62,980 nt of DNA. Origin: Armatimonadota bacterium. GTDB lineage: Bacteria > Bacteroidota > Ignavibacteria > OLB7. The notes beneath the pieces are model-generated. The model was not told the DNA's origin and did no database searches. It saw only the letters and a list, made by a program, of their open reading frames with translations. Shown piece by piece: positions 5,589 to 47,427 of the stretch (position 1 is its first letter; each line of letters starts with the position of its first letter). Both the position numbers and the translations under genes were made by a program. The DNA is taken from contig JADZEY010000138.1 in NCBI GenBank assembly GCA_020850315.1, positions 1 to 62,980 of the forward strand, read 5' to 3'.

Positions 5589-7073
5589 TTGCAGCCAGAC
5601 ATTGAACAAACCCGGTTGCGGGTATCCAAAGGAACGAATGCAGCCAAGAAGGCGCAATTCGGCCAATTTCTTACCCCGAAAGGGATTGCTGCTTTTATGG
5701 CAAGCCTTTTTCCATCCGTTGGGGGGTGCTGCCGTTTGTTGGATGCTGGGGCCGGTATCGGTTCGCTTTCGGCGGCTTTTCTGGAGCGGTGGCGCGCTGG
5801 CGGTTTTCAGTTCCAGCGCGTCCAGCTTGACGCATTCGAGATAGATGCTTCGTTGCATACCGAGTTATCGAAGACATTCTCGAACTATCGAAGCGATGCG
5901 TTCAGCGCAAGTATCCATGGTGATGACTTCATACACGCCGCAGTGGATGCCCTTTCCGGCGGTTTTTTTTCAAGAACACTTGCCGGCTACAGCCACGCGA
6001 TACTCAATCCACCGTACAAAAAAATCACGAACACCTCGGCACACCGATTGGCACTGCGTTCGATTGGGATTGAGGTAGTCAATCTCTACTCGGCTTTTGT
6101 CGCGTTATCGGTAGCGCTTGTTGTGCAGGGGGGGCAGATTGTTGCGATCATTCCACGCAGTTTCTGCAACGGGCCGTATTACCGGCCATTCCGTGACTTC
6201 ATTCTTGGCAAAGCAGCCATTCGTCACCTTCACTTGTTTGATTCGCGCAGCAAGGCTTTCAAGGATGATGATGTTTTGCAGGAGAACATCATCATCCTGC
6301 TGGAGCGTGGTGGCCGCCAGGGAGCGGTGACAGTTTCGACCTCGACCGATGGGACATTCACTGATTATACCGAACACAAGCATCCATTCTGCCAGATTGT
6401 GCTTCCCGACGATCCAGAGCACTGTATCCATGTGCCGACCTCATCCAAGCCAAACACGATTGCATTGTTCCCGACTATTTACTGCACCCTTTCTGAGGTT
6501 GGGGTCAGCGTATCAACCGGTCCCGTGGTTGATTTCCGAGTAAAAGAACACCTGCGTGATATGCCGGGACCAAGCACTGTGCCCATGCTGTATCCGAGCC
6601 ACTTTGCTGGACAAAGCATCAGGTGGCCGATTGAGGGGATGAAAAAACCCAACGCTATCGAGCGTAACTCCCACACTGAGAAGTGGCTGTATCCGCTCGG
6701 GTTCTATTGCCTAGTGCGCCGCTTTTCCGCCAAAGAGGAATCGCGCCGCATCGTTGCAAGCGTTGTTGAGCCAGCTACGTTTGGCCAGATGCCGATGATC
6801 GGTTTGGAGAATCACGTCAACGTCTTTCACGAAAACAAGCATGGGCTGCCCGAACCGTTGGCGCGTGGTCTGGCACTGTTCCTGAACACCACTGCCGTTG
6901 ACCAGCAGTTCCGGCGGTTCAGTGGCCATACCCAAGTCAATGCGACCGATCTTAAGTTGCTGAAGTATCCAAGCCGTAAGGCCCTAATCCGGCTTGGCTT
7001 GTGGGCAATGGAGCAAGAAGGAACACCGACGCAAGAGCAGATAGATGCCACCCTTGAAACCTTGATAGAATGA
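5589..7073 (+). CDS. Type II adenine-specific DNA methyltransferase (PstI/BsuBI-like)
   Basis: A 494-residue N6-adenine methyltransferase of the gamma-like type found in PstI/BsuBI systems. It shows QFGQFLTP (residues about 25-32), the SAM-binding motif LLDAGAGIGSLS (about 49-60), the catalytic NPPY (about 140) and a C-terminal target-recognition region. The start is a TTG at 5589 with GGAGAGGAAG just upstream; no ATG precedes the conserved N-terminal block. It protects host DNA, most likely at CTGCAG, by transferring a methyl group from SAM to adenine. Its stop overlaps the ATG of the endonuclease gene (ATGA), so the pair is translationally coupled with the methylase first. The specificity is an inference from the family. 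Confidence 0.9.
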   Translation: MQPDIEQTRLRVSKGTNAAKKAQFGQFLTPKGIAAFMASLFPSVGGCCRLLDAGAGIGSLSAAFLERWRAGGFQFQRVQLDAFEIDASLHTELSKTFSNYRSDAFSASIHGDDFIHAAVDALSGGFFSRTLAGYSHAILNPPYKKITNTSAHRLALRSIGIEVVNLYSAFVALSVALVVQGGQIVAIIPRSFCNGPYYRPFRDFILGKAAIRHLHLFDSRSKAFKDDDVLQENIIILLERGGRQGAVTVSTSTDGTFTDYTEHKHPFCQIVLPDDPEHCIHVPTSSKPNTIALFPTIYCTLSEVGVSVSTGPVVDFRVKEHLRDMPGPSTVPMLYPSHFAGQSIRWPIEGMKKPNAIERNSHTEKWLYPLGFYCLVRRFSAKEESRRIVASVVEPATFGQMPMIGLENHVNVFHENKHGLPEPLARGLALFLNTTAVDQQFRRFSGHTQVNATDLKLLKYPSRKALIRLGLWAMEQEGTPTQEQIDATLETLIE

Positions 7074-8026
7074 GAACCGACAGCAAGCGTAACCACATCA
7101 GGGAAGCAGAGCAAATTCTTGTATCCTTAGGCCTACCCCGGGCACAGCACAACGAACGCTCGGCACTCTGCCTGTTATCGCTGTTAGACCTTAGCCCGGG
7201 CAAAGCATGGAGCAAGGCGAGCAACCCACTGATGGGCATCACGCCGATCATGGACTGGATCCGTAAACACTACCACAAGGACTACGCGCCAAATACTCGC
7301 GAAACAGTGCGTCGCCAGACTATGCACCAGTTTGTGGATGCTGGGTTGGTTCTGTACAATCCAGATAAGCTTGACCGTCCAGTGAATAGCCCAAAAGCGG
7401 TCTATCAGATCGAACCTGCCACGCTTGCCCTGCTACGCAGTTTTGGCACTGGGCAATGGCACACTGCACTGGCGAAGTATCTGGCGATGCGCCAGACATT
7501 GGTTGCCCGTTACGCTAAAGAACGTCAACAAAGCCGTGTGCCGGTTACAATTGCGTTGGGTAAACACATCACCCTAAGCCCCGGTGAACATAGTGAACTG
7601 ATTCGAGCGGTCATCGAAGACTTCGCCCCACGCTTTGCGCCCGGTAGTGTGTTGGTCTATGCTGGGGATACTGGTGACAAATGGGGGTACTTCGATGCGG
7701 CACTGTTAGCGCGGTTGGGGGTTAACGTTGATCCCCACGGTAAAATGCCCGATGTGGTATTGCACTACACCAAAAAGAATTGGCTACTACTGGTGGAGTC
7801 TGTTACCAGCCATGGGCCAGTTGATGGGAAGCGGCACGCAGAGCTGACCAAACTGTTCGCTGGGGCAACGGCAGGGCTGGTGTACGTTACCGCTTTTCCG
7901 AACCGAGCGATCCTTAGCCGCTACATTGGCGAAATCGCATGGGAGACCGAAGTATGGATAGCCGATGTGCCGTCTCACCTGATTCATTTTAATGGCTCCC
8001 GCTTCTTGGGCCCGTATCATGCTTAG
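7070..8026 (+). CDS. Type II restriction endonuclease, PstI/BsuBI family
   Basis: A 318-residue protein matching the PstI/BsuBI endonuclease family in length and pattern. The N-terminal half is a helical, winged-helix-like region (TPIMDWIRKHYHKDYAPNTR, then MHQFVDAGLVLYN). The C-terminal half holds the nuclease core: GKMPDVVLHYTKKNWLLLVE with Asp228 and Glu243, then SVTSHGPVDGKRHAEL. In the family this block forms a PD-(D/E)xK-type active site cutting within CTGCAG. The ATG overlaps the methylase stop by four bases. It ends only 11 bases before the convergent regulator gene and no terminator is visible between them. No controller (C) protein gene is present. Confidence 0.9.
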   Translation: MRTDSKRNHIREAEQILVSLGLPRAQHNERSALCLLSLLDLSPGKAWSKASNPLMGITPIMDWIRKHYHKDYAPNTRETVRRQTMHQFVDAGLVLYNPDKLDRPVNSPKAVYQIEPATLALLRSFGTGQWHTALAKYLAMRQTLVARYAKERQQSRVPVTIALGKHITLSPGEHSELIRAVIEDFAPRFAPGSVLVYAGDTGDKWGYFDAALLARLGVNVDPHGKMPDVVLHYTKKNWLLLVESVTSHGPVDGKRHAELTKLFAGATAGLVYVTAFPNRAILSRYIGEIAWETEVWIADVPSHLIHFNGSRFLGPYHA

Positions 8027-8037: not shown

Positions 8038-10008
8038 TCACAACCTCTGCAGATACGAATCCAACTGCTGGTTTGGTCGCAGTCCCAATGCTTTCCGTAG
8101 TCTGTGCCGCCGCTTGTGCAAGGCATCGGGGGAGATGTGGAGCACCGAAAGAATAGCATCGGCGGTCATGCCGGAGTGGATGCAATCGCAGAGCAGAGCC
8201 AGCGCGGGCGGTAGCGCTGGATGCTGCGCAAGCAGCCTGTGGTGGAACTCCTTGTTGGAGCTACGCAAACTTGCTTGCCATTGCGCACGATTGCCCCCGG
8301 CGGTGTCCCCAACTTCTTGCGCCAGCGACCGCAGTTCCCCCAATGCTGCCACATTTTTTTCTTGCTCGATGGTCCCCATAATTGCTTGTAGCCGCGTCCG
8401 CAGTGCCCTTACTTGATGCTGATGTTCGATAAGTGCAATGCGCATGGCATTCAGATCAGCTTCTGTGGCGTGCAGGGTGGTGTGGGCTTGCTCCTTCTGC
8501 TGGCGTTCGCGTAAGGATTGTTCTTCCAACTGGTCAATCCGGTACTGCACACGAAGCATCATCATCCGGTTGTTCGATCGCTCCTGATCGGCGTGGCGGC
8601 ACAGCTCATGGTACCGCTGGTAGTACTCCAATGCTTGCTGGAAATCCCCTTGCGACTTGAAGATTTTGGCAAGCTGCTGGTTGGCTATCATTCTATTCTC
8701 ACCGCCACCAGTTTCTACGGTTTTCAGATAGTGGCCGATGGCGGCATCGCTGTTTCCTGATGCTTCATAAAGCTCTGCAAGCAACCGATGGATAGTTGCG
8801 GCTATCGCCACCGAGGGCAATGCTTGCTGATAGGCTTGCTCGGCTTCTTCCAGCCGCCCCTGTGCTTGGTAGGTTTCGCCAAGCAACACCACAGCGGTGG
8901 AACGATATGGCAAGGGAAGCCTGTGATGTTCGGCGATTGCTATCGCTTCGGTCGCTTGGTGTTCCCCTGCTATTGCATCCCCTTCTGCCAAATACAGCCG
9001 CGCCAACGCCATGTGAATTTGAAGCCGAAGCAATGGTGTTTCGATTGCCTTTGCGTGCTGTAGCGTTTGCAGCAACTTCTCCCGCGCTGCTGGAAGCTCG
9101 TTCAGTTTTAGCAGCATCCTAACGATAATCAGCAGCAACTGGACAGTGGTCCCCGATGCGAAGCCTGATGAAAGAGGTGTTTCGATGGATCGAGCATACT
9201 CCAACGCTACGGTGTACTCCCCTTTGATAAATAGCTGCGTGATGATGTCGTTGGCCGAGCGGATGCCAAGCATCGTCTGCCCCGAATCGAAGCCAATGTT
9301 TTGGGCGGTTGCCCAAAGCCTCATCCCTTCCTCGAACTTCCCCATGTTGAACACTATCCTCCCTCGTGTATGGAAAGAAAGCCAGAGCGCGGTGGGTGGG
9401 AATTGGCCATCGGCAAGCAGCGCAAACACTTCATCGGAAACCTCCAGCGCCTGGGCGGGCTGCTTGAAACGCTCGTACAGCAGCTCGGCAATGGCGTTAA
9501 GGTGATTGACCCATTGCGCCTTCGGTAATCGTTTTTCGCGGGCAATCGCAAGCCCTTTCTGTTGCAGCGCAAGCGCATCCTCGGCCTTCCCACGTTCCAG
9601 CACTATGTGTGCCTGATTTCCAATCGCCCATGCCACAGTTGCCCAGTCGTCTGCTTCTGTGGCTATCTCCATCGCTTGCTGGTTCTGTTCCAGCATGCCT
9701 TCGGTTGAACCACCAATCCACAACTCTAACTGCTGGATAACACACACCAAGAACGCATACTCCGATTTCTTGCTCCGTTTGGTAGGGGAATGGGAGGGAG
9801 GTTCGGTGGTTGCAATCGCTTGATCCATTGCATTGACCAGTGGGCGAAGTAGCTGCAGCGTTGGCTCTGCATCGTGGATAGCAAGTTCTTGGTTTCGGAG
9901 CAGCCGTGCCAGATACGCGCCTTTGTCGCGAATTTTTCGGTTAGCCAGTATCTGGCCTATCTCCTCAGCCAAGATCGGATGCAAATCGGTTGTTGGGATA
10001 GTTGCCAT
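8038..10008 (-). CDS. TPR-repeat transcriptional regulator with C-terminal HTH
   Basis: A 656-residue cytoplasmic regulator. The N-terminal and central parts are tandem tetratricopeptide-like helical repeats (for example AIAELLYERFKQPAQALEV, LGETYQAQGRLEEAEQAYQQ, YQRYHELCRHADQERSNNRM). A coiled coil follows (EQSLRERQQKEQAHTTLHA onward). The C-terminal ~50 residues form a helix-turn-helix of the LuxR/GerE-like kind (MTADAILSVLHISPDALHKR, ending QQLDSYLQRL). Such TPR plus coiled-coil plus HTH regulators are common in Bacteroidota; the TPR part probably senses protein or metabolite partners. The ATG at 10008 (MATIPTTDL) was chosen over an upstream in-frame ATG at 10059 because the latter lies in the divergent promoter space. 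It faces away from the barrel/giant exoprotein/FN3 cluster, about 185 bases apart, and is a plausible regulator of it. Confidence 0.8.
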   Translation of the reverse strand: MATIPTTDLHPILAEEIGQILANRKIRDKGAYLARLLRNQELAIHDAEPTLQLLRPLVNAMDQAIATTEPPSHSPTKRSKKSEYAFLVCVIQQLELWIGGSTEGMLEQNQQAMEIATEADDWATVAWAIGNQAHIVLERGKAEDALALQQKGLAIAREKRLPKAQWVNHLNAIAELLYERFKQPAQALEVSDEVFALLADGQFPPTALWLSFHTRGRIVFNMGKFEEGMRLWATAQNIGFDSGQTMLGIRSANDIITQLFIKGEYTVALEYARSIETPLSSGFASGTTVQLLLIIVRMLLKLNELPAAREKLLQTLQHAKAIETPLLRLQIHMALARLYLAEGDAIAGEHQATEAIAIAEHHRLPLPYRSTAVVLLGETYQAQGRLEEAEQAYQQALPSVAIAATIHRLLAELYEASGNSDAAIGHYLKTVETGGGENRMIANQQLAKIFKSQGDFQQALEYYQRYHELCRHADQERSNNRMMMLRVQYRIDQLEEQSLRERQQKEQAHTTLHATEADLNAMRIALIEHQHQVRALRTRLQAIMGTIEQEKNVAALGELRSLAQEVGDTAGGNRAQWQASLRSSNKEFHHRLLAQHPALPPALALLCDCIHSGMTADAILSVLHISPDALHKRRHRLRKALGLRPNQQLDSYLQRL

Positions 10009-10192
10009 GCTCAAAAAAATGCTTCCGATGCTAACGTTGTCCAAGAAATGTCCAGGCAATCACTATTGTGGATGTGGTCAACATAGCAACAAATTGCAGT
10101 CGTTCATGCTGGTAGTTCGGTACGGTGCTATTGGCATGGCTCATTCTCCTTCCTTTTCTCTTTCCTTTTCGCCAAGATCTCAACATCACACT

Positions 10193-11875
10193 ATGAGAAT
10201 CTCTCTGTGGTTGGCTCTGTGGGTTTTCCTTGGTGGGTTCAGTTCGGTGGTTGCTCAAGATGTGGAAACGGTTGCCAGTGCCCCCGTGTTCACGTTGAAT
10301 GGGAGCATCTCCGCAAGTATGGCGGCCTACAACGCCAGCGGCATTCCCGACCGCCAGACCCCCTTTACGTGGCTGCTGAGTGGGTCGCTAACGCCAACGA
10401 TTAAAAGCGTTGCCATTCCCCTCAGCTTTGTTGTTTCCGAGCGGGAACGGAGCTTCCGCCAGGCATTCAACATCGTTGGCATCTCGCCGAAATACCAGTG
10501 GGCCACGGTTCATGCCGGCTATCGCTCGCTTCAATTTTCCCGCTACACGTTGGCCGGGGTTCAGTTTTTAGGAGGGGGATTCGAGCTTGCCCCGGCAAAC
10601 TTCAAGGTGGCCGCAATGTACGGGCGGCTTCAGCGGGCGGTGGAGCCCGACAGCACCCAGCAGTACGTCCAACCTGCCTACCAGCGGATGGGCTACGCCG
10701 CGCAAGCCGGATACGCCCAGGGCCCCTGGAAGGTGATGCTGAACTTCCTGCAAGCAAAGGACGACAGTGCCAGCCTGAAAAACCTGAGGGGGGAATCGGC
10801 CATAAAGCCGCAGCAAAATTCAGTGGTGGCAATGGAGCTTGGCGCGCCGATTGTGCCGGGAATCCTGACGTTCACCGCCGAAGGGGCCATGAGCGTAGTG
10901 ACAACCGACCTCCGCTCGCCCGATATTTTGCCTGAGAATAGCGATGTCCCGGCACTGCTGCGCGGGTTGCAGCCACTGAAAACATCCACACGCTCAACCG
11001 CTGGGATGCGCGCAGGGCTGAACGCCAATTTCTCTAAGTGGGGCGTGCGGCTGAATTATGAGCGGCTGGATCCCGGCTTCGCCTCGTTCGGGGCCTACTA
11101 CTTCACCACCGACGTAGAAAACTACACCATCGCCCCACGCCTGCGATTGGGGACCGTGAATATCAGCGGCTCGATCGGGTTGCAACGCGACAACTTGGAG
11201 AACCAGAAGCCCACCACAACAAACCGCTTGATCGGCTCGGGGAATCTGGATTGGGTAGCATCGCAAGCCTTCGGGATCAACCTTAGCTACACCAACTACT
11301 CCACCAACCAAGCCGCCGGGCAGCGGGCCCTGAACGACACGATTGCCATACGGAACGTCACCCGCTCGGCCACGGTCTCCCCCCGATTAACCTTCCAGGA
11401 AGACACCACGCGAACCCATTCAATCACCGCAATGGCCAGCTACCAGGATTATACCGACCTGAATGCCTTCACCCGCCAATTTTCGGAGAACAGCTCCATC
11501 ACCGGAACGCTTGGCTACACCGTCTCGTTCGTCCCCAGCGCGCTGACCTGCGGCGTGGCGCTTAGTGGGGCCCAGTCGGATTTCTCCGGCGGAAGCAACC
11601 AGACGCTTGGCGTAAGCCTGAATGGCGGAATTGCCTTGATGAAAAACACCCTCTCCCTGAACTCCACCATCACCTTCTCCCAAACCAACACCACTGGCCT
11701 TAGCGAAAGCAAGGCAACGGTGTTCAACGAAAATCTTAGCGTGAGCTATCGGCTTACCGATGCTGATAATCTTTCACTGAGCGGATATGCAACGCAAGTG
11801 CAAGCAAGCGGCCAGCAGCCAGCGTTTACCGAGACGCAGGCCACGCTTAGTTATTCACGCAGCTTTAACTGGTAA
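10193..11875 (+). CDS. Outer-membrane beta-barrel protein of the surface cluster
   Basis: 560 residues from the ATG at 10193. Residues 1-21 are a signal peptide (MRISLWLALWVFLGGFSSVV, then AQ). The rest is a chain of amphipathic beta-strands with aromatic belts (WATVHAGYRSLQFSRYTLAG, SITAMASYQDYTDLNAFTRQ) and ends in LSYSRSFNW, an aromatic C-terminus as expected for recognition by the BAM machinery. No TonB box or plug domain is visible, so it is not a TonB-dependent receptor. An open frame upstream to 9833 is only the shadow of the divergent regulator. It lies 14 bases before the giant exoprotein gene and is very likely cotranscribed with it. It may anchor or export the giant protein, but this is inferred from context only. 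Confidence 0.8.
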   Translation: MRISLWLALWVFLGGFSSVVAQDVETVASAPVFTLNGSISASMAAYNASGIPDRQTPFTWLLSGSLTPTIKSVAIPLSFVVSERERSFRQAFNIVGISPKYQWATVHAGYRSLQFSRYTLAGVQFLGGGFELAPANFKVAAMYGRLQRAVEPDSTQQYVQPAYQRMGYAAQAGYAQGPWKVMLNFLQAKDDSASLKNLRGESAIKPQQNSVVAMELGAPIVPGILTFTAEGAMSVVTTDLRSPDILPENSDVPALLRGLQPLKTSTRSTAGMRAGLNANFSKWGVRLNYERLDPGFASFGAYYFTTDVENYTIAPRLRLGTVNISGSIGLQRDNLENQKPTTTNRLIGSGNLDWVASQAFGINLSYTNYSTNQAAGQRALNDTIAIRNVTRSATVSPRLTFQEDTTRTHSITAMASYQDYTDLNAFTRQFSENSSITGTLGYTVSFVPSALTCGVALSGAQSDFSGGSNQTLGVSLNGGIALMKNTLSLNSTITFSQTNTTGLSESKATVFNENLSVSYRLTDADNLSLSGYATQVQASGQQPAFTETQATLSYSRSFNW

Positions 11876-11889
11876 TCCTGCCCGAACAA

Positions 11890-14800
11890 ATGATGCACAA
11901 CCTGAATACTCCAAACCATGCAAGCGCGATGAACAGAGGATTCCGAGGATTTCAATGGATTGTTGTTGTGGTGGCGTTTGCCATTGGCGTTCTGCTACCG
12001 GAAGCTGCGCAGGCCCAGCCCAGGGACGTTGCAGTGGTGACGATTACCGCCGCCCCGTTCGACCCCGCGCTTTCTGTCTGGGAGGCAAACCCAAGCCGTG
12101 TGCAGATACGGCTCACCAACAATAACGCCGACGGGCTCACCTACCTTGCCCGCATGAGCGCCAGGCTTGCCAACGTTGACGGCACGGTAGAGCTGACAAC
12201 AAAACCAGATTTCGCACCTGCAATTTTTGAGCTTGCCCCCGGCGTGGCGGAAACGAAAAATGCTTTATCCATCGGCGTTTTCAACCTGAACAATGCCGAT
12301 GTGAACGGAAGCGCGGCCGCACAAGTAATCAGCACCGGGCGATTGCCCGAGGGGACGTACACGCTGTGCGTGGATGTTTTCGAGGCCTCCGATGGTTTCC
12401 CGCTATCAAACTCGGGCGGCACAAGCTGCGCAACCTTTACGATTGTGCTTCCGGCCCCAGCCGCGCCCACGCTTCCGGTCTGCGGCACAACGATTACTCC
12501 ATCGCAACCGCAAAACGTGAACTTCCAATGGCTAACGCCCACCGTACCCGGCGCGCAGCTTCGGTACGACTTGCTGGTGGTTGCTGTGCCGAACGGCCAA
12601 ACGCCGGAGCAAGCAATCACCACGGCAACGCCATTGTTCGAGCAGAAAAATCTGACGACAAGCAGCTTCCTGTACGGCATTGCGCAGCCCGCGCTTCAGG
12701 TTGGGACTACCTACGCTTGGCGCGTGCGGACCAGCGATGCAAACGGAGCGGTGGTATTCAGCAATGGTGGACAAAGTGAGGTGTGTTCGTTCACCTACGG
12801 CGACAACACACCGGTGGAGGGGGCCGCGCCGCTTGCGCCGGTTTGTGGCAGCACGGTTCTGCCAGCGCAACCGCAGAATGTGATGTTCCAATGGTCCACA
12901 CCCCCAGCACCCGGGGCGCAGCTTCGGTACGACTTGCTGCTGGTTGCTGTGCCGAACGGCCAAACGCCGGAGCAAGCAATCACCACGGCAACGCCATTGT
13001 TCGAGCAGAAAAACCTGACTACAAGCAGCTTCCCGTACGGCATTGCGCAGCCCGCGCTTCAGGTTGGGACCACCTACGCTTGGCGCGTGCGGACCACCGA
13101 TGCCAATGGGCTTGTCACGTTTATCAACAGCGGGCAAAGTGAGGTTTGCTCCTTCATCTACGGCAATCTGGTTGAAGGTGGGCGGCCGCTTGTTCCGGTG
13201 TGCGGGGCATCCATCACACCAACAAGTCCGCAGAATGTGATGTTCCAATGGTCCACACCCACTGCCCCGGGTGGGCAGATCAGATATGACTTGCTGCTGG
13301 TTGCTGTGCCGAGCGGCCAAACGCCCGAGCAAGCAATCACCACGGCAACGCCATTGTTCGAGCAGAAGAACCTGACGGTGAACAACTTCGCGTACGGCAT
13401 TGCGCAGCCCGCGCTTCAGGTGGGAACAACGTATGCGTGGCGTGTGCGGACGTTTGATGCTTCCGGCACAATGGCTTTTATCAACGGTGGCCAAAGCGAG
13501 GTGTGCTCCTTCACCTACGGCGATAACACGCCGGTGGAGGGGGCCGCGCCGCTTGCCCCGGTGTGCGGCGCGACCGTCACGCCAACGCAACCGCAAAACG
13601 TGAACTTCCAATGGCTAACACCCACCGCACCCGGGGCGCAGCTTCGGTACGATTTGCTGCTGGTCCCTGTGCCGAACGGCCAAACGCCTGAGCAAGCAAT
13701 CACCACGGCAACGCCATTGTTCGAGCAGAAAAATCTGACGGTGAACAGCTTCCCGTACGGCATTGCCCAGCCAACGCTTCAGATTGGTGTCACCTACGCT
13801 TGGCGTGTTCGGACCAGCGATGCCAATGGGCTTGTCACGTTTATCAACGGTGGCCAAAGTGAGGTTTGCTCCTTCACCTACGGCGCGGCGGTGGCTGGGG
13901 CTGCCCCGATTGTTCCGGCTTGTGGGATCACCATCACCCCAACGCAGCCGCGAAACGTCGGCTTCCAATGGTCGCTGCCCACCGCACCGGGGGCGCAGCT
14001 TCGGTACGATCTGGTGGTGGTTCCGGTGCCGAGCGGCCAAACGCCGGAACAGGCAATCGCCACAGCAACACCGCCGTTCTTCTTCGAGCAGAAAAATCTG
14101 ACAACACCAAACTTCCAGTACGGCATTGCCCAGCCCGCGCTGAAAATCGGGACAACCTATGCGTGGCGGATTCGGACATCGGATGCCGCCAATGTTGCCA
14201 CCTTCACCAACAACGGCGAAAGCGAGGTCTGCTCCTTCACCTACGGCGATGACTCGCCGGTCCAGGGGGCTTCTCCGTTGGTTCCGGTCTGCGGGGCAAC
14301 GATTACTGTTGCGCCAGCACAGCTGCAAATGGTCAGCTTCCAATGGACGCTGCCAACTGCGCCCGGGGCGCAAGTTCGGTACGATCTGGTGATGGCTCCG
14401 GTGGGCCAGGGGCAAACGCCGGAACAAGCGATTGCCGGGGCAGCAGCATCATCCTTGTTTGAGCAGAAAAACCTGACGGCACCGAGCTTCCTGTACGGTG
14501 CTGGGCATCCCCGGCTGCAAGTCGGGACAACCTACGCTTGGCAGGTTCGGACCTTCGATGCGTTGGGGGAGGTCACCTTTATCAATGATGGACGGAGTGA
14601 GGTCTGCTCCTTCACGTATGGCGAGCAGAGTATCGGCGCATACGAAGTTGCCAAACCGGATGGCCCACCGTGCGCCGAGACGGTGAACGAGACTGCAATC
14701 CAGAGTTTCCAGATGTATTGGATCCCCTCGACTGCGCCAAATGTTCGCTATGACTTGGTTGTCACCCCAGTGGAGGCGGGGAAATCGCCCGACGAGGCAA

Positions 14801-17800
14801 TCCTGACGGCCACCACGCCAATGTTTTTGGAAGCAACCAATCTACAAGCGCCTTCCTACTTTTATGGCACACTATCCCCCAAGCTGACCGTTGGCACAAC
14901 CTATGCGTGGCGCGTGCGGACGGTGGATAACACCGGGGTGATCCAGTTCCCAAACGATGGCTGGAGCGAGGTCTGCTCCTTCACCTACGGCACCCCCGAA
15001 AAGGAGGAGAGCGCGGCCGATTGCGCCAAGCCGATCCTTGCCATCACCTTCCCGAAAAGCAATGCTGTCCCCATCCCGTACCGCAACGTTCCGATCATCG
15101 TCCGCTACTCACCCTTGTGCGCGGTGATGAAGGAGTTCAACTCCACGCTGAATGTGATGAAGGGGGGAGGGCAGATTGCGCAGCGCGTGCGGAGCTACAC
15201 CTTCCAAGAAACGTTGTACGAGAAGGAGAGGAATGCCGCAAACGGAAAAGCACCCACGACGGCGGTGCTCTACAGCCAGGCGAACAACAACCGCTACACG
15301 CCGTTCCTGTTGGGGTCGGCAGGCGATGCTTGGTCGCTCCCTGCGGACTCGTTGGAGTGGTCGGCCCAGGTGACGCTGAAGCCGCAAGATGGGACCGGGT
15401 GGGTGCTTCCAGTAGGTGGAAAATTCAAGGTGGGGCTTACCAGCCCGTTGCTTCAGGCTCCGGTCCCGAACGCCCAGGTGAATGGGGATGTGAAGTTCAC
15501 TTTCCAGACCGCGCAGCCAGCAACGGCGGCCCAGGTGCTGCCAAGCGAAGGGGTGGTGTGGAGTGCCGAAAAAAGCCGTGGGCTGCTGGGCGATAGCATC
15601 GGCAAGGTGCAGGAAATTTGGATGATAGAGGTTTCCCCAACGCCGTTCACTGGCAACTACACCGTCATCAAATCCAAAATTGGGAAACTGGTAGCAAACA
15701 TTCCGCTATCGAACACCGCTTCGGCCACGGCTGCGCTTAGTCAAGTCTATAAAACCATCACCGACTCCATGCCATTGGAGCAGGGGGGATACTACTGGCG
15801 GGCGAAGTGGTTGACCAACAACGACACCAGCCGGCTTCTGCGGAGCATGGTTCCATCCGACACGGCGGCCTATGCTTGGAGTGAGGTTCGCCCGCTGACC
15901 GTCACCAGCAATGCAGCATCCATTGCCCAGTGCCTGAACATCGCCCCGTCGTCGCCGATCAACGGTGGCGATTGGACAGCATCGTTGCGGCCAGCATTTG
16001 CTGTGAAGATTACCCCCACCATCAACACCGCCAAAGTAACCGGCGGCAGAATAGAGCTTTGGAAACTTGCCACCGAGCAAGAGAAGCAAAACCCCTCCGT
16101 GAAGACAGCAACCCGCCCCGACACAGCATTCAGTTTCACCGGGGCAGCCGGGCTGAAAGCACGCCCCGACACCGCCACGATTGACCTTGCGTTCCTGAAC
16201 ACACAAGGCTTTGTTGGCGAAGCCAATGCCACCTACGCCTGGCGTTTCACGCTGCACTATGTTGGCAACGGAAGCACCATCCGCAACGACCTTGTGGCCT
16301 GCAACCGCGACACCGCAACCTCCATTGTTGGGACCTTCCGCATCAACGGCCAGATGCCAACGGTTGACCCTGCCACGTGCGCGTATCTGACCGCCGAAAC
16401 TCCGAAGTTCGATAGCAAGATCACTGCCCCCACCGTTGCTTTCTCGCTGAAGGCAACGCCGGCGATTGATAGCAACGGAATAGAGTCCATCCAACTGAAA
16501 GTCTGGCGGCGGCGTTCGACGCTTGGGGTGGTGGAATCGGCTGCATCGGCCAGCGCGCGCATCCCCGATTTCACGCAGACCTTGACCAAAAGCAACTTCA
16601 CGAACACCTACGCCACTGGCGATTTTACATCGCTGCTGACGCTGAAGGGGACTACCTTCGTCCCCAAAATGGATAGCAGCTACTTCTGGCAGGCGGTTAT
16701 CACACGTGCAACGGGGAAGCCACTGCTTGCCAGCGGCGCAAGCTGCACCGCGCCAACCGTTGCCAGCGCGGTCAGCACCTTCCGCTACGACACCACGGCG
16801 GTGCTTGCCAACGCCAACTGCCCCGACAACTGCTTGCTTCCCGAGCCGGTCAACAAAACGCTGGGGACCACAGCATTTGTGATGGGGGACAGCATCCGCG
16901 TGGGGCAGTTTGGCATGACGCTAACCGCCGTAACCAGCGGCGCGCCGGGGGACCTTACTGGCGAAGGGAGGATTCGGATTCCGTTCATGGGGGGGATTAG
17001 CGTTGCTGTGGAGTTCACCGGGCTGAAGGTGAACAACGCCCGCCAAGTCTTCTTTGGCGAGGTCAAAGGGAAGCAAGCACCCGACGTAACGCTCCCCGCC
17101 GAAGCACTAAGCACCGTTGGGGCCGGCGAGTGGACTCAGCAGGGGATCACCGCAGCCTACGGCGTGGCGACGCAAGCCACACGGCTGATTAAAAACCTTG
17201 CATCGAAGGAAGGCGCAATGCTTCCGATTGGCCTTGATGCGGCAACACAAACTGGTGAATCGGGGGATGCTGCCGAAGCGTCGGCAATCACCTTCGGCAT
17301 CACCACCATGTCCTTTACGCCAACCGGGGCCACGCTTGCCGCAGCGGTGAAAATCCCGTTGCCGGTGCTTGGGACCAATGGTGGAGTCGGTTTCGGAGCG
17401 CGCAATCTTTGCTTTACTCCAACCGGCTTCAGCGGCGCAAAACGGGAGTTCTATTTGGCTTCGGATGTTGGCTACACCGAGCCGGGGAAATCATGGAGCT
17501 TCAAGGTGAAAGGGGGACAGGCAACGCCCGGGGATAGCGGAACCTACATCACGTGGGATTGCAAGGGAATCCAGACCGTGAGCGTTGGGCTGCAGGCCCA
17601 GTTGCCGCGTGCGTGGGTGCTGCCGATTACCGCCGCCGGCGAGGTTGATGAAAACGAGTCCAACCTTGTCACCGCACGGTTTGCCTTCACGTGGCGGCGG
17701 GGCGTGCCAGCAACAACAACAACTCCAACCGCGCCGGCAACAACTCCAACAACTCCAACCAGCACCCTTTCGCCCACGCAACCGGGGCCGGGGTTGGTGC

Positions 17801-20800
17801 AGCGTGTGACGCGCACGGTGGGGGGCTTCAACCTGATGCTTGTTGGCTCGATTGACCGCTTCGCCCCGGCAAACGCACCCGATGCCCATGCGGAGATTGG
17901 AAGCATCGCGCTCGATTTCTCCACTACGGAAAATCCCCCCGGCATGAATTTCCCGGAAGGGTATGCCGGGGCCATGGATAAAACATGGCGTGGTTTCTAC
18001 TTGGCCAACGGCTCCTTGCGGTTGCCGAATGCGTTCACCAACCGGAAGAACTCCAGCGAGGCGATCTCCATCGGGATCAAGTATCTGATGATTGATCAAA
18101 CCGGCATCAGCTGCAACGCTGCGGCCCACAAACTTCTGCCGATCAGCGAAGGGAGCGCCGGCGGATGGGGGATCAGCATTGACACCGCAGCCATTGAGGT
18201 GGTGAGCAACTCACCAAAATCGTTCTCGGTTGCCGGCGCAATCCAGCTGCCGATTGCCGATACCACCATCAACTACAAAGCAAGCATTGCGTATCCCGCC
18301 GTTAGCATCAACCGCCCGGCAGGGACGACCTCGCCAGCCACGCCGACCACGCCGGTGGGAGCCACCACGCCGACCCCGCCAGCCGGAAGCGGAGCTGCCA
18401 CAAAAGTTCGGCTGCCGAAAATCACTCTATCACTCTCCAATCTGAGTGCTATCCCAATGAACCTTTGGGTTGCGCGGGCGCGCTTGGATAACGTGACGGT
18501 GACGCTGGAAAAGAAGTCAGTGACACCAACAACACGCCCTGGCGCAACAACGCCAACCAGCCCAACAAGGCCAGCCAGCACAAGTTCCACTACTTCACCA
18601 GCAAGTGGACAGCAACTAAAATGGGTGGCAACACTTGATCTTAGTGCTGGCATTGCCTTTGGCAAGGGGAGAGCGGGAAGCGGGGAGACCGAAGCAAACA
18701 AGCCGCCAAAATTTGCGCTGGACATTGCCGTGCAGAACTTCAAGGTGCAATCGGTGCAGCCTTACGTGCTGAACAGCGGCACCTGGTTGATTAACGGAAC
18801 CACCGTTGCTGGCGGAAGCAGCGGCACCGGCGTTGCTGCCGACCCATCGGCAACAACAACAACAACAACAACAGCCACAGCCGCGCCCGAACCGCAGCCC
18901 GAACAGCGTGGGTTGGCCGGCTTCCCACTAAGCATCACCGGGGTGACGGCCATAAGCACCGGAACCGAGCAGCCGGAGATCGGGGTGAAGTTCACCGTGA
19001 ACCTGAACCTGCTGAAACTTGGCAGCGGTTCGTTCAGTGGCTCAACAACGCTTTCGGTGATTGGCGAGATGGGAACCGACCCCAACACGCAGAAATTCTC
19101 CTTCAGCCGTGTGGAGGTGAACCGCATTGATGTTGATGCAAAAGTGGGGCCGGCGGTCAGCGTAAAAGGGACAGTGATCTTCTACCGGAACGACCCCAAA
19201 TATGGGACCGGATTCTACGGCAAGGTGATGGCGAACATCCTTGAGAAAATTCAAGTTGACGTTGTGGCGCAGTTCGGCGCAGTGGAGCCACAGGGGGAAT
19301 CCAAATTCCGCTACGGGCTGATAGATTTTGCGGCCAAGTTCGTTCCTGGGATACCGCTTGGCGTTGGGGCAATCCAGACCGGGCTGAGTTTCTACGGTGG
19401 TGGCGGTGGCTTGTGGTTCAGCATGTCGCGCGATCCATCATCCCCCAGCCCAAAACTTCCGCTGGAGTCCAGCGCCGACCCCAGCAAAGCAAAAATTGGC
19501 GAATCCCTTTCCGGCTACATCTATCAGCCCAATAACAACACACTGTTTGGTGCGCGGCTGATGCTGACCCTGGGGGCAACCAAACCGGAGGTTTTCAATG
19601 GGGATATCGCCTTGGAGATTGAGATCACCAAGGACTGGGGGCTTGGGCGCATTAGCCTACAAGGCAATGGCTATGGCATGACCAGCAAGTTCCCCAACCG
19701 CAGCGATGCAAAGCTGACAACGTTCATAGACCTTACCTACACCCCCCCGACCAAAACCTTCGAGGGGACATTCAATGCCAAATTGCAGTACCCCCCTCTG
19801 ATAACAGCAGAGGCGAACATCCGCCTGCACGCCTCACCGGAGAAGTGGTATGTGCGGTTTGGAACTCCAAGGAAGGTTGCTGGTGATGAATCTCAGCCCG
19901 GGCCAATGAACATCACGCTGTTGAATTTCATGACAGTGCAAGGATATTTCATGTTTGGCAGCGAGATTCCTGCCATGCCGGAGATTCCCAGTAACATCAT
20001 GGCTGGGCTAGACAGGAATGGGATTAAGTACACAAGTGGCCGCGACAACATGAGGATTACCGAGGGGAAAGGCTTGGCGTTTGGTCTCAAAGCTGGGTTT
20101 GAAACGGGGCGGAGGGAGTTCCTGATTTTCTACGGCGACATCAGTGCGGAAGCCGGGTTCGATGCCTCGGTGATGCAGTATCCCGCAAGCGCTAATTGCC
20201 AGGGAACCAGCCCAATCGGGATCAACGGATGGTACGGCAACTTCCAGATGTACGCAGGGCTGGATGCCGACATTGGCATCAGCGTGAAGCTCTTCTTCAA
20301 GCGGGTAAGCGTCAGCATCTTCCGTGCCCAAGCCTATGCTGTGCTGGAAGCCGGCGGGCCAAGCCCTACGTGGGCAAAAGGGGCGGTGGCGGGGCAGTAC
20401 AGCGTCCTAAGTGGGCTGATAAAAGGGAGCTTCAAGTTCGAGTTCGAGGTTGGCGAGCAGTGTGCGCCAATGCGCGATGAGCTTGCCGACATCAAAATGA
20501 TCTCCGACATCACCCCCCGCGCCGGCGAGAATGATGTATCGGTGATGGCCGCCCCCCGCGCCGCCTTCAACCTTGCACTGAACACCGAGATGGAGTTAGG
20601 GGATGGGGTGACACTAGACCGCTACCGCATGGTGTTGGACTACATGAAGCTGGAGCAAAAAATGGGCAGTGGGTACGTGGTGGCAAAGGGAACCAAAGAT
20701 ATTGCGGGCGATCGTATCACCGTCCGGTTTGTGGCGGAAGATATGTTGGAAGCAAACACAGAATATCGGGCAAGCGTGCGGGTGAAGATGATGAAGCTGG

Positions 20801-22131
20801 TGAATGGCCAATGGCAGGATGCGTACTACGACGGCAAGCCGATGATGGAGGACACCACAATCACCTTCACCAGCGGCGAGCGGCCCCCGTTCATCCCCAC
20901 AGCCAACGTGGCCTACACCACGCCGGAAACCAATCAGCGGTTCTTCATCCAGGACTGGGAGTGCCGCACCGACGTTCTGAATTTCGCTATTGCTGCAATC
21001 CGGTTACGGCAGGGGCAGGAGTATCTGTTCGACACTGCCTACTGGAAACGAACTGCCCCGAAGGCAGCAAGTACCAAAATCACTGGCTTGGTGCATACGC
21101 GGTATGGCACATGGAAATACCCCGCATCGTACGACAAGGCGCGTAAAGAGGTGATTATGCGCAGCGACCAATATGGGCACTATCTTGACCCAAGAGCCTC
21201 AGTCACGATTGAGCTTATCCGGGAGGACTTCTACGCTGGAAGCACTGGTACGATAGCCACAACCGAACAGAAGGAACTAAGCCGCGATATGGGGGCAAAC
21301 TCGGCCACCACTACCACGCGGCAGATGTCGGGTGCTACAACGCGTGATTACCTCATAACCACGAAGCTGGCCTCCTTTGGATTTACGACCAGCGGGCATC
21401 GGAACTACAAGAGCAAACTGGGTGGGTGTTCGCTTAGGGTTGTACAGGAATTGCCCTACGCTACGAAATTGGCCATCACCAACCCGGAGGGGTTTGACCG
21501 TCACGAGATTGGCGCGGAGCGGTATGAGTTCTTCGTGGATGGAGAAAAAGTATTCTCAGAGCCAATCGTGCAGATTCTGCCGGATGAAGAGCAGATCAAA
21601 AAAACAGAATGGTGGAAGCACCAAGTCCAAGGAGCGATGGAGGGTGGAGAGTATGGCCATACTATTAGCCCGATAGCCAGGGATGGGTTCAAACACCAAC
21701 GGCTTATTGGATTGGATAATGGCGGAGTAATCAGTGACGGAAAAGAAGTGCTCTTTTCCTTCGACTACGCCTTCTGGTATCTGTACCAGATGAAGGCGAA
21801 CCTTGATGCTAACCGGCAGATCATTGATGAAGGATGGAACCGCAATGTATGGCGGCACCATGGCTATGGCCCGCGCCCATACGACTTCGGTTGGAATAAT
21901 GATGGCGGCTACAGCGACCACGAGACCCACTATATCCCCTTCTACTACGGGCGATCCAATGGCGGTGGTAACATCTACTCCCGCGAACAAGTCAGCTATG
22001 GTGTCCTTATCAAGCACAGATGTTCAGGGGCAACGAAGTGGTTCCCCTGGGAGCGCGTGGTGGATTCTCCCAAAGCATGGCCTGCGGGTGATGCGCCGTA
22101 TCCCGTGACGATTGGGCATCCGTTGAACTGA
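11890..22131 (+). CDS. Giant repetitive exoprotein with FN3-like/TANFOR-like repeats
   Basis: A 3413-residue exported protein. The signal peptide lies near residues 18-45 (core WIVVVVAFAIGVLLPEAAQA); translation may start at ATG 11890 or at ATG 11929. An N-terminal domain (about 46-190) is followed by seven FN3-like repeats of about 120 residues, each beginning P-x-C-G and ending SEVCSFTYG (about 196-1035). Then come further beta-rich domains, four Thr/Pro-rich linkers (about 1938, 2143, 2213, 2320), a long beta-sheet region and, from about residue 2880, a bacterial Ig-like domain (DITPRAGENDVSVMAAPRAA). The architecture recalls proteins annotated with TANFOR domains in Bacteroidota, a comparison from memory. 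It lies between a beta-barrel gene and an FN3 protein gene. No T9SS sorting domain or LPXTG is seen at the C-terminus, so the export route is unclear. Surface adhesion or a structural envelope role is inferred. Confidence 0.85.
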   Translation: MMHNLNTPNHASAMNRGFRGFQWIVVVVAFAIGVLLPEAAQAQPRDVAVVTITAAPFDPALSVWEANPSRVQIRLTNNNADGLTYLARMSARLANVDGTVELTTKPDFAPAIFELAPGVAETKNALSIGVFNLNNADVNGSAAAQVISTGRLPEGTYTLCVDVFEASDGFPLSNSGGTSCATFTIVLPAPAAPTLPVCGTTITPSQPQNVNFQWLTPTVPGAQLRYDLLVVAVPNGQTPEQAITTATPLFEQKNLTTSSFLYGIAQPALQVGTTYAWRVRTSDANGAVVFSNGGQSEVCSFTYGDNTPVEGAAPLAPVCGSTVLPAQPQNVMFQWSTPPAPGAQLRYDLLLVAVPNGQTPEQAITTATPLFEQKNLTTSSFPYGIAQPALQVGTTYAWRVRTTDANGLVTFINSGQSEVCSFIYGNLVEGGRPLVPVCGASITPTSPQNVMFQWSTPTAPGGQIRYDLLLVAVPSGQTPEQAITTATPLFEQKNLTVNNFAYGIAQPALQVGTTYAWRVRTFDASGTMAFINGGQSEVCSFTYGDNTPVEGAAPLAPVCGATVTPTQPQNVNFQWLTPTAPGAQLRYDLLLVPVPNGQTPEQAITTATPLFEQKNLTVNSFPYGIAQPTLQIGVTYAWRVRTSDANGLVTFINGGQSEVCSFTYGAAVAGAAPIVPACGITITPTQPRNVGFQWSLPTAPGAQLRYDLVVVPVPSGQTPEQAIATATPPFFFEQKNLTTPNFQYGIAQPALKIGTTYAWRIRTSDAANVATFTNNGESEVCSFTYGDDSPVQGASPLVPVCGATITVAPAQLQMVSFQWTLPTAPGAQVRYDLVMAPVGQGQTPEQAIAGAAASSLFEQKNLTAPSFLYGAGHPRLQVGTTYAWQVRTFDALGEVTFINDGRSEVCSFTYGEQSIGAYEVAKPDGPPCAETVNETAIQSFQMYWIPSTAPNVRYDLVVTPVEAGKSPDEAILTATTPMFLEATNLQAPSYFYGTLSPKLTVGTTYAWRVRTVDNTGVIQFPNDGWSEVCSFTYGTPEKEESAADCAKPILAITFPKSNAVPIPYRNVPIIVRYSPLCAVMKEFNSTLNVMKGGGQIAQRVRSYTFQETLYEKERNAANGKAPTTAVLYSQANNNRYTPFLLGSAGDAWSLPADSLEWSAQVTLKPQDGTGWVLPVGGKFKVGLTSPLLQAPVPNAQVNGDVKFTFQTAQPATAAQVLPSEGVVWSAEKSRGLLGDSIGKVQEIWMIEVSPTPFTGNYTVIKSKIGKLVANIPLSNTASATAALSQVYKTITDSMPLEQGGYYWRAKWLTNNDTSRLLRSMVPSDTAAYAWSEVRPLTVTSNAASIAQCLNIAPSSPINGGDWTASLRPAFAVKITPTINTAKVTGGRIELWKLATEQEKQNPSVKTATRPDTAFSFTGAAGLKARPDTATIDLAFLNTQGFVGEANATYAWRFTLHYVGNGSTIRNDLVACNRDTATSIVGTFRINGQMPTVDPATCAYLTAETPKFDSKITAPTVAFSLKATPAIDSNGIESIQLKVWRRRSTLGVVESAASASARIPDFTQTLTKSNFTNTYATGDFTSLLTLKGTTFVPKMDSSYFWQAVITRATGKPLLASGASCTAPTVASAVSTFRYDTTAVLANANCPDNCLLPEPVNKTLGTTAFVMGDSIRVGQFGMTLTAVTSGAPGDLTGEGRIRIPFMGGISVAVEFTGLKVNNARQVFFGEVKGKQAPDVTLPAEALSTVGAGEWTQQGITAAYGVATQATRLIKNLASKEGAMLPIGLDAATQTGESGDAAEASAITFGITTMSFTPTGATLAAAVKIPLPVLGTNGGVGFGARNLCFTPTGFSGAKREFYLASDVGYTEPGKSWSFKVKGGQATPGDSGTYITWDCKGIQTVSVGLQAQLPRAWVLPITAAGEVDENESNLVTARFAFTWRRGVPATTTTPTAPATTPTTPTSTLSPTQPGPGLVQRVTRTVGGFNLMLVGSIDRFAPANAPDAHAEIGSIALDFSTTENPPGMNFPEGYAGAMDKTWRGFYLANGSLRLPNAFTNRKNSSEAISIGIKYLMIDQTGISCNAAAHKLLPISEGSAGGWGISIDTAAIEVVSNSPKSFSVAGAIQLPIADTTINYKASIAYPAVSINRPAGTTSPATPTTPVGATTPTPPAGSGAATKVRLPKITLSLSNLSAIPMNLWVARARLDNVTVTLEKKSVTPTTRPGATTPTSPTRPASTSSTTSPASGQQLKWVATLDLSAGIAFGKGRAGSGETEANKPPKFALDIAVQNFKVQSVQPYVLNSGTWLINGTTVAGGSSGTGVAADPSATTTTTTTATAAPEPQPEQRGLAGFPLSITGVTAISTGTEQPEIGVKFTVNLNLLKLGSGSFSGSTTLSVIGEMGTDPNTQKFSFSRVEVNRIDVDAKVGPAVSVKGTVIFYRNDPKYGTGFYGKVMANILEKIQVDVVAQFGAVEPQGESKFRYGLIDFAAKFVPGIPLGVGAIQTGLSFYGGGGGLWFSMSRDPSSPSPKLPLESSADPSKAKIGESLSGYIYQPNNNTLFGARLMLTLGATKPEVFNGDIALEIEITKDWGLGRISLQGNGYGMTSKFPNRSDAKLTTFIDLTYTPPTKTFEGTFNAKLQYPPLITAEANIRLHASPEKWYVRFGTPRKVAGDESQPGPMNITLLNFMTVQGYFMFGSEIPAMPEIPSNIMAGLDRNGIKYTSGRDNMRITEGKGLAFGLKAGFETGRREFLIFYGDISAEAGFDASVMQYPASANCQGTSPIGINGWYGNFQMYAGLDADIGISVKLFFKRVSVSIFRAQAYAVLEAGGPSPTWAKGAVAGQYSVLSGLIKGSFKFEFEVGEQCAPMRDELADIKMISDITPRAGENDVSVMAAPRAAFNLALNTEMELGDGVTLDRYRMVLDYMKLEQKMGSGYVVAKGTKDIAGDRITVRFVAEDMLEANTEYRASVRVKMMKLVNGQWQDAYYDGKPMMEDTTITFTSGERPPFIPTANVAYTTPETNQRFFIQDWECRTDVLNFAIAAIRLRQGQEYLFDTAYWKRTAPKAASTKITGLVHTRYGTWKYPASYDKARKEVIMRSDQYGHYLDPRASVTIELIREDFYAGSTGTIATTEQKELSRDMGANSATTTTRQMSGATTRDYLITTKLASFGFTTSGHRNYKSKLGGCSLRVVQELPYATKLAITNPEGFDRHEIGAERYEFFVDGEKVFSEPIVQILPDEEQIKKTEWWKHQVQGAMEGGEYGHTISPIARDGFKHQRLIGLDNGGVISDGKEVLFSFDYAFWYLYQMKANLDANRQIIDEGWNRNVWRHHGYGPRPYDFGWNNDGGYSDHETHYIPFYYGRSNGGGNIYSREQVSYGVLIKHRCSGATKWFPWERVVDSPKAWPAGDAPYPVTIGHPLN
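12475..14999 (+). repeat. Seven in-frame ~360-bp tandem repeats in the giant gene
   Basis: Repeat units begin at about 12475, 12838, 13195, 13558, 13915, 14284 and 14665, giving spacings of 363, 357, 363, 357, 369 and 381 bases. Units 1-4 are nearly identical at the DNA level, for example in the stretch encoding QTPEQAITTATPLFEQKNLT. Units 5-7 are progressively diverged. The alternating 363/357 spacing means the fresh duplications copied a two-unit block of 720 bases. Confidence 0.9.
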
Positions 22132-22142
22132 TGGCGATCCCT

Positions 22143-22203
22143 CGTTCTACTACGGGTGCTCCAGCGGCAATAACATGTACTTCCGCGAACAAGTCACCTG
22201 AAG
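22143..22203 (+). repeat. Decayed duplicate of the giant gene's 3' region
   Basis: This stretch, 11 bases beyond the stop of the giant gene, resembles 21948-22010 inside it. Both share TTCTACTACGGG, a TCCA(A/G)(T/C)GGC segment, AACAT(C/G)TACT and CCGCGAACAAGTCA. In the duplicate the coding sense is FYYGCSSGNNMYFREQVT and a stop, against FYYGRSNGGGNIYSREQVS in the gene. It is a non-coding remnant of a tail duplication or of a replaced C-terminus. The remaining bases to 22264 show no other feature. Confidence 0.75.
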
Positions 22204-22264
22204 ATTTGGAACGAGTAACAACCGTGATGCGCCAATACTGCTTACTCTCAATCGCATACCAAGC

Positions 22265-24427
22265 ATGAACCATATCAGCGTAGTTATCCGCCATATCGTC
22301 AGCCTTACCGTGCTGGTGCTGGTTGTTGCCACCGTCGCCGTGGCGCAACCAGCAACCACGCCGCCAGCCGCTATTGTTGTTGCCGCCAAAATCTTCCGCG
22401 AGGGGGATTCGGTGGTGGTTCGGTGGGGGCCAACTACCCCCGGGGCGTGGCTTACGGCCAACAAGGTGGGCTACATTGTGGAGCGGGCTGTGGTGCCGGA
22501 GAACGTCACCTATCCTGTCAACTTCAACAGCCTCAGCTTCACGCGGCTAACCCCGCAGCCGATCCGCCCCTGGACCCTTGAGCAGTGGCAGCAATCGGTC
22601 GGGACCGACACGGCCAAGCAGTGGCAGATGGTTGCCGCCCAGGTGCTTCTTGGCGAGTCCACCCCGGCTGCCGCCTTGAAGGCTCCGCAGGGGAGTGCGC
22701 GGTCGTTGGGGTTGCAGGCCACCGAGCTTTCCAACCGCCACGGGATGGCACTCTATGCCGCCGATCTTGACCCGGTTGCTGCCGAAGGGTTAGGAATCCG
22801 TTTTGTTGACAGAACGGTGGATACGGGAACGCTGTTTTCCAAGCAGCTTATCTATCGCGTCTCCCTTGCCGTGCAAGCCCCTTCCGACCCGGTGAAGCCG
22901 GGCCATGCCTTTGCTGGGTTTGGTTCGGGGGTTGCGCCAATTACAGAGAGCAGCATCCAAGCGGGCGACGGCACGATCCAGCTACAGTGGAGTTCGTTAA
23001 AGATCAATGGCCCTTCGGGGTTTTGGGTGGAACGCTCGGACGATGCCGGGAAAACATGGCGCAAGCTGCACCGCAGCCCGCTGGTTGCCTTAAGCACCGA
23101 TAGCAATTCTACCGCGAATGACCCATCGGTGATCCAGTTCACCTTCCGCGACACGACCATCACCAACTATCGTTGGTATCACTATCGGCTTTCCAGCATT
23201 GATCCGTTTGGCGGAACACGACCAGAGTTTCTGGACAGCGCGATGGGGCGGGATCGGACCCCGCCCACCGCCCCCAACAAGGTCACGGGGAAAGAAGCCA
23301 GCCAGACGGCGATGACGCTGGAATGGACAATGCCCGCATCCGCCAGCCCCGATCTTGCACGGTTCGCAATTTTCCGCTCGGTCCACGACGAAGGGCCGTT
23401 CGACACGGTGATAACAACCCTTCCGCCAACCGCCCGCAGCTTCACGGTGAACGGGGCCGACACCGCCGGGGCGTACTACATCGTTGCGTCGGTGGATACC
23501 GCAGGGAACTACGGCCCAGCAACAACGGTGTTTGCCGAGGTGATTGATCGGGTTCCCCCCAAAAAACCGATGGGGGTGGAAGGGCGGGTGGATACCAGCG
23601 GATTGATCTTCTTGCAATGGCCTCGCGTGGTGGATCGCGATAGCTGCACGTATGACCTCTTCTTTGCCAACGACTCCACCGATGAGTTCACCCGGCTGAC
23701 CCCGTATCCAATCGCCGACACCGCGTTTGTGGACACGCTCCGTTTGCAAAGCGAGTCGCGGAAAATCTACTACAAAGTGATGGCCTACGATGCGCGGCAA
23801 AATCAATCGCCGCTGTCGGATCCGTTGGAGTTGATTCAGCCGGATCATATCGCCCCCGATGCTCCATCTATCGAAGGGATCGAAGGGACCGATTCCTCGG
23901 TGATTGTGCGGTGGAATCGCAGCAGTGCCACCGATGTTGTCCGGCAGCTGGTGCTGCGCCGCCAGGACGATGACAGCCTCTGGATCCAAGTGGCCGAGCT
24001 ACCGCAGGAAACCGAAACCTACCAAGACACCTCGGCGGTGGCATCGGCAATCTACCATTACCAGCTGGTGGCCGAAGATGCAAGCGGCCTGCGAAGCCAG
24101 CCCTCCAACTCGGCATATGCTGCGGCCTACCGGCTTCGTCCGCCGGCCACCGTGCGCGATCTTGCCATCGAGCTTGGTTCCGATTCGGCAAGCATCCAAC
24201 TGCGCTGGAGCTACACCCCCGGCAACAACGAATCTCCGATTCGCATCGAGGTTTACCGTGCAGGATTGCAAGGAGCATTGGAACCGTACAAAACCCTTCC
24301 CCCCGATGCGCGGAATTTTAGCGATGACAACCTTCTTGGCGAACCCATCTGGAAGTACGCCCTTCGCGTGGTGACAGAAAACGGGGAATCGCTGCTGTCG
24401 GATGTTGTGGCCAAGCAGGTGCAATGA
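22265..24427 (+). CDS. Secreted fibronectin type III repeat protein
   Basis: 720 residues with an N-terminal signal peptide (IVSLTVLVLVVATVAVAQ, cleavage near residue 28). After a unique N-terminal region of about 190 residues come at least four FN3-like domains with the W...(Y/F)...S/D pattern: GTIQLQWSSLKINGPSGFWV, AMTLEWTMPASASPDLARF, GLIFLQWPRVVDRDSCTYDL, SVIVRWNRSSATDVVRQLVL, with a last one at SIQLRWSYTPGNNESP. The domains are joined by DRVPPKKPMGVE or PDHIAPDAPSIEG-like linkers. No catalytic domain or sorting signal is visible. It is the third gene of the surface cluster, 133 bases after the giant gene, in the same direction, and probably interacts with the giant protein. This functional link is inferred only from order and shared domain style. 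Confidence 0.8.
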   Translation: MNHISVVIRHIVSLTVLVLVVATVAVAQPATTPPAAIVVAAKIFREGDSVVVRWGPTTPGAWLTANKVGYIVERAVVPENVTYPVNFNSLSFTRLTPQPIRPWTLEQWQQSVGTDTAKQWQMVAAQVLLGESTPAAALKAPQGSARSLGLQATELSNRHGMALYAADLDPVAAEGLGIRFVDRTVDTGTLFSKQLIYRVSLAVQAPSDPVKPGHAFAGFGSGVAPITESSIQAGDGTIQLQWSSLKINGPSGFWVERSDDAGKTWRKLHRSPLVALSTDSNSTANDPSVIQFTFRDTTITNYRWYHYRLSSIDPFGGTRPEFLDSAMGRDRTPPTAPNKVTGKEASQTAMTLEWTMPASASPDLARFAIFRSVHDEGPFDTVITTLPPTARSFTVNGADTAGAYYIVASVDTAGNYGPATTVFAEVIDRVPPKKPMGVEGRVDTSGLIFLQWPRVVDRDSCTYDLFFANDSTDEFTRLTPYPIADTAFVDTLRLQSESRKIYYKVMAYDARQNQSPLSDPLELIQPDHIAPDAPSIEGIEGTDSSVIVRWNRSSATDVVRQLVLRRQDDDSLWIQVAELPQETETYQDTSAVASAIYHYQLVAEDASGLRSQPSNSAYAAAYRLRPPATVRDLAIELGSDSASIQLRWSYTPGNNESPIRIEVYRAGLQGALEPYKTLPPDARNFSDDNLLGEPIWKYALRVVTENGESLLSDVVAKQVQ

Positions 24428-39760: not shown

Positions 39761-39858
39761 GGATCGAAAATAACCATTGAACCGTCACGGTGTTGTGGTT
39801 CGGCGGCTGATGCTTTACTTTGTTGCCAACTGATCCGCGTAAACCCTTCAACGTCAAC

Positions 39859-45129: not shown

Positions 45130-45201
45130 CCAGAAAATCATGGCTTACACAGCCGATAGGTACATCCAAAAAAATAACGGCAACAACCTCCAGAAAACAC
45201 C

Positions 45202-45618: not shown

Positions 45619-45628
45619 TCTTCCCCCC

Positions 45629-47353: not shown

Positions 47354-47427
47354 AGTATGAAGTATGAAGTATGAAGTATGAAAAAAGCAGCCTGTTTCCT
47401 TCACTCGACACTCGACACTCGACATTC
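47343..47427. repeat. Heptanucleotide repeat tracts between mod and res
   Basis: Five copies of ATGAAGT run from about 47343 to 47378, and three copies of ACTCGAC-type heptamers from 47402 to 47427. The second tract ends two bases before the res start codon at 47430. Confidence 0.85.

Follow-up and report, generated by a model that had tools for sequence, protein, structure and literature searches.

A cluster of three genes transcribed in one direction, the middle one encoding a protein of 3413 residues, raises the question of what these proteins do together. The genes lie in a stretch of 62,980 nucleotides (hereafter the window) from a host genome of 4.24 Mb. The closest named relative found for this genome is a Chlorobiota MAG (locus L009, called the sister species below). 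An earlier note on this DNA had proposed that a beta-barrel protein, the giant protein and a protein with FN3 domains constitute one envelope or surface unit, possibly a new adhesion or matrix structure, and that these three genes are under the control of a divergent regulator gene. The features of the locus are as follows.

8038..10008, minus strand: TPR-HTH regulator gene, with TPR matches; lies next to the cassette but is not conserved with it
10193..11875, plus strand: barrel gene, 560 aa, predicted outer-membrane beta-barrel with a signal peptide, unnamed family
11890..22131, plus strand: giant gene, 3413 aa, with a signal peptide, a TANFOR-like domain, seven FN3 units, two middle beta-rich regions, a conserved core and a variable C-terminal region
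12052..12396, plus strand: TANFOR-like N-terminal domain of the giant (TIGR02542, 19.1 bits, E 0.0027)
12466..14991, plus strand: seven FN3 units, giant residues 193-1034, from self-comparison
16630..18306, plus strand: middle conserved region, giant residues 1581-2139, from a profile search across loci
18904..20949, plus strand: conserved core, giant residues 2339-3020, with an Ig-like stretch
20995..22131, plus strand: C-terminal region, giant residues 3036-3413, with no toxin domain recognised
22265..24427, plus strand: FN3 protein gene, 720 aa, with a signal peptide and several FN3 domains

This is the layout described previously, with the regulator divergent from three plus-strand genes, apart from small corrections to two start sites. 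The regulator most likely starts at the ATG at 10008, not at the TTG at 10059. The barrel start is assigned to the ATG at 10193 because a longer open reading frame from 9833 overlaps the regulator and because the 10193 start is conserved in the sister species. The intergenic spacings reported earlier are correct: 14 bases (11876-11889) separate the barrel and giant genes, and 133 bases (22132-22264) separate the giant and FN3 genes. Signal-peptide-like N-termini, which had also been claimed, are visible in all three plus-strand products (by eye and with a crude script, not SignalP). A scan for promoters and terminators yielded sites no more numerous than in shuffled sequences, and no relatives were found among viral contigs. 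Just beyond the regulator, positions 5589-8026 encode an Eco57I-type methylase and a BsuBI/PstI-type restriction endonuclease; neither gene occurs in the upstream flank of the sister-species cassette. Farther along the window, the region 44005-50252 resembles a type III restriction-modification locus: an HTH/IrrE-like peptidase gene comes first, then genes for an N6/N4 DNA methylase and a ResIII-type helicase.

When giant residues 1001-3413 were used as the query, with the best matches lying over the core, homologues were found in 36 of the 197 genomes of the class. A profile of the core matched 40 of 345 genomes sampled from the phylum. Adjacency was then counted for 37 core-bearing genes, taken from 40 stretches of class genomes around giant homologues. 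At each of these class loci (37/37) an FN3 gene is located on the same strand within 2 kb of the giant homologue, and a barrel gene is located within 2.7 kb at 35 of 37. All three components occur together at 35 of the 37 class loci, and in the window they are adjacent on one strand. The adjacency of the three plus-strand genes is far beyond chance. Gene order varies across cassettes (barrel-giant-FN3, giant-FN3-barrel or giant-barrel-FN3), but the genes stay together.

The components also diverge in a correlated manner, most strongly the core and the FN3 protein (rho 0.63), and all three pairs exceed 2000 permutations, a result that does not separate coevolution from shared descent. Relative to the sister species, the barrel is 89% identical, the giant 48-86% depending on the segment and the FN3 gene 81%. 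Together, these sequence comparisons indicate that the trio is a real module conserved across distant Bacteroidota. Some cassettes depart from the common arrangement. Extra TANFOR-only genes, encoding 709 and 600 aa, lie between barrel and giant at L109:3429-5558 and L113:5746-7548. At L098:6528-13797 and L132:11131-15984 the core is split over two open frames, possibly reflecting a pseudogene or an assembly error. Another cluster in the host's own genome (L087:2118-20000) carries two barrels, a TANFOR protein and an FN3 protein.

The regulator does not share this conservation. In the sister species, the 8 kb preceding the cassette contain no TPR-HTH homologue, and the best regulator homologue in that genome, 50% identical, is encoded on another contig. 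Synteny with the sister species therefore does not support the divergent regulator as part of the system, and we rejected this gene as a cassette member. Of the four-gene neighbourhood sought in relatives, the trio is maintained, at the frequencies given above, and the regulator is missing beside the sister-species trio. LuxR-type or TPR sensor genes are neighbours of some other cassettes, so regulators recur nearby, but not the TPR-HTH gene of the window. In a Runella locus (L125:10739-13812), genes for a TPR histidine kinase and a LuxR response regulator are divergent from the barrel gene, an analogous arrangement with a different layout. At L087, an AAA/MalT-TPR/LuxR regulator gene is found ∼2.3 kb from the barrel/TANFOR/FN3 cluster.

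The N-terminal domain of the giant scores below the TIGR02542 cut-off of 67 bits, and homologous giants match this model at the same position with E values of 1e-8 to 1e-14. This pattern suggests that the domain is a diverged TANFOR domain. Self-comparison recovers the seven FN3-like repeats reported earlier; the other six units are 48-82% identical to the second. The giant of the sister species likewise has seven units, and three other giants checked have one matching unit each. FN3-type and related Ig-like stretches are the only matches to Pfam on the giant. The Ig-like end that had been noted corresponds to a Big_5 match at residues ∼2871-2969, which is weak here (E 0.016) and above the Pfam cut-off in a paralogue. 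This stretch lies within the core, the most conserved part of the giant, which matches no named family over most of its length and has no PDB relative by sequence. On the basis of these matches, the giant is best described as a probable fusion in which a diverged TANFOR domain and seven FN3 units are joined to an unnamed core rich in beta structure.

The barrel protein has no match in Pfam, NCBIfam or the PDB. Its AlphaFold model is poor (pLDDT 48, four alignment rows) but contains long strands, and its fold matches, used as a hint only, are mostly outer-membrane barrels. The protein is thus predicted to be an outer-membrane beta-barrel. The core model is also poor, with only four alignment rows used, and therefore no contact or fold is demonstrated by either model. 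Barrel homologues are present in 108 of the 197 class genomes. Four genomes encode a fusion protein in which a TANFOR domain at the N-terminus precedes the barrel. These fusions, together with the conserved adjacency and correlated divergence, support the earlier proposal that barrel, giant and FN3 protein belong to one envelope or surface unit. We considered and rejected assignment of the barrel to PorP/SprF: none of 28 barrels matches PF11751 or PorP/SprF, and a profile comparison with one PorP-family protein gave a probability below 1%. PorP/SprF was not found in the host genome.

As the earlier note had stated, neither the giant nor the FN3 protein carries a recognisable T9SS sorting domain, with no match to PF18962, TIGR04183 or similar domains (type A or B) in Pfam or NCBIfam. 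The host genome encodes SprA and many proteins with T9SS sorting domains. Outside the class, every one of the 20 core-positive genomes that were tested encodes SprA. It is also common in general (192 of 197 class genomes and 77 of 99 from the phylum sample), and for this reason its presence is uninformative on whether the cassette depends on T9SS. The window additionally encodes two large sortilin/BNR-repeat proteins (33785-37333 and 39820-42744), the second of which matches a T9SS sorting domain weakly, with a score under the Pfam cut-off.

Relatives in Bacteroidia place the cassette parts in a distinctive context. At two loci (L010 and L011, from Cytophagales and Chitinophaga), the parts of the giant are separate genes, in the order barrel, TANFOR protein (742-779 aa), a 1050-1065-aa protein, a small gene, core, FN3 protein and an SprB-repeat protein that carries a T9SS sorting domain. 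Two Chitinophaga loci encode proteins of 1065 and 1007 aa, which are alike over ∼600 N-terminal residues and different afterwards. At L127, L139 and L140, genes for barrel, TANFOR protein, one or more small products, core and FN3 protein all run in one direction, and their TANFOR proteins share 1000-1280 residues before diverging, as is typical of polymorphic toxins. An Emticicia plasmid has a barrel gene, then a gene for a TANFOR protein with a WHH nuclease domain at its end, and then a SUKH-1 immunity gene, and a Bergeyella plasmid carries fragments of cassette parts with a toxin-deaminase gene. Some Bacteroidia loci have the core with no adjacent barrel or FN3 gene. These arrangements indicate that in Bacteroidia the cassette parts are associated with TANFOR polymorphic toxins, which are of an antibacterial type, and immunity genes.

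Because the parts recur in TANFOR toxin/immunity operons, the best-supported context for the cassette is delivery of a toxin or surface protein, not a new matrix. Of the earlier suggestion of a new adhesion or matrix structure, what stands is a possible adhesive role for a toxin-less copy. Neither the window cassette nor any of the class cassettes inspected contains a toxin or immunity gene, and the function proposed here is therefore transferred from distant relatives. We estimate a probability of about 0.55 that the three plus-strand genes are a toxin-less member of an outer-membrane display or delivery cassette for TANFOR proteins. The Sec pathway would carry all three proteins to the periplasm, and the FN3 protein would be a stabilising or linking partner. 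The barrel would sit in the outer membrane, bind the TANFOR end of the giant, and either anchor the giant at the surface or aid its crossing, by analogy with the way PorP/SprF barrels hold type B cargo. In Bacteroidia this platform would carry toxins. Since a single chain unites TANFOR domain and core and contains no recognised toxin, the window copy would most likely act as a long surface display or contact fibre. It is rather doubtful that barrel, core and FN3 protein make up a dedicated outer-membrane apparatus for TANFOR export or display that works without a T9SS sorting domain, with the toxin-free fused copies as a separate lineage.

Other explanations were weighed against this display or delivery cassette. 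A dedicated adhesion or matrix role is a tentative possibility. The barrel would then hold the giant as an adhesin fibre that is also linked to the FN3 protein, and the toxins in Bacteroidia would reflect a later use of the platform. This role agrees with the lack of toxins in the class cassettes inspected and with features typical of surface proteins, namely multiple FN3 units, an Ig-like stretch and Thr/Pro linkers. However, no adhesion domain is recognised, and the recurrence with toxin-immunity pairs in Bacteroidia argues against this role. The barrel could instead be a porin-like channel for uptake or envelope maintenance, with the giant and FN3 protein as accessory capture or scaffold proteins. 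We regard this as improbable, since it leaves the toxin link unexplained and no enzyme or transporter gene was seen recurring beside cassettes. The fold matches of the poor barrel model do include substrate-specific porins, but such matches are generic for outer-membrane barrels.

It is very improbable that the giant itself is a polymorphic toxin with an unrecognised C-terminal toxin domain. TANFOR proteins are indeed a toxin class (PMC7073777), and the C-terminal region is the part of the giant least conserved relative to the sister species (48% identical versus 79% for the core). However, this region matches no toxin family in Pfam or NCBIfam, and its end aligns between the two sister species and is not swapped. 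No immunity gene lies downstream: the giant gene is followed by the FN3 gene, and neither of the two small genes beyond that has an immunity match. On these grounds the giant was rejected as a toxin. Likewise, no toxin domain was recognised in five further TANFOR proteins from the same genome (a sixth, C26, is cut by a contig end and was left out).

TANFOR proteins of Bacteroidetes are described as polymorphic toxins that are hypothesised T9SS substrates with an unsettled export route, and their neighbours include FN3 proteins and SprB/sorting-domain proteins (Jana, Salomon and Bosis 2020, PMC7073777). The barrel, the core and the cassette are not described in the main text of that paper, and no later description of the barrel/core/FN3 cassette was found in open-licence literature. 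T9SS is the published hypothesis for how TANFOR toxins exit the cell, and a conserved barrel/core/FN3 unit, with or without a toxin, points to specific genes for testing TANFOR export.

The window cassette resembles the TANFOR polymorphic toxins in that the giant has a signal peptide followed by an N-terminal TANFOR-like domain and FN3 units, has an FN3-protein neighbour and is encoded in a genome with T9SS. Moreover, homologous cassettes carry true TANFOR toxins with immunity genes. In contrast to these toxins, the TANFOR domain of the window is diverged and falls below the curated cut-off, the giant is fused to an unnamed core, and neither a toxin nor an immunity gene is present. A second comparison is with PorP-type barrels, which anchor type B T9SS cargo (PMC9143113). 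The window barrel is not PorP/SprF by sequence and the giant lacks a sorting domain, so the cassette does not belong to that family. PorP-type barrels, which are paired with a large surface protein as the cassette barrel would be, are the nearest functional analogy to the cassette barrel.
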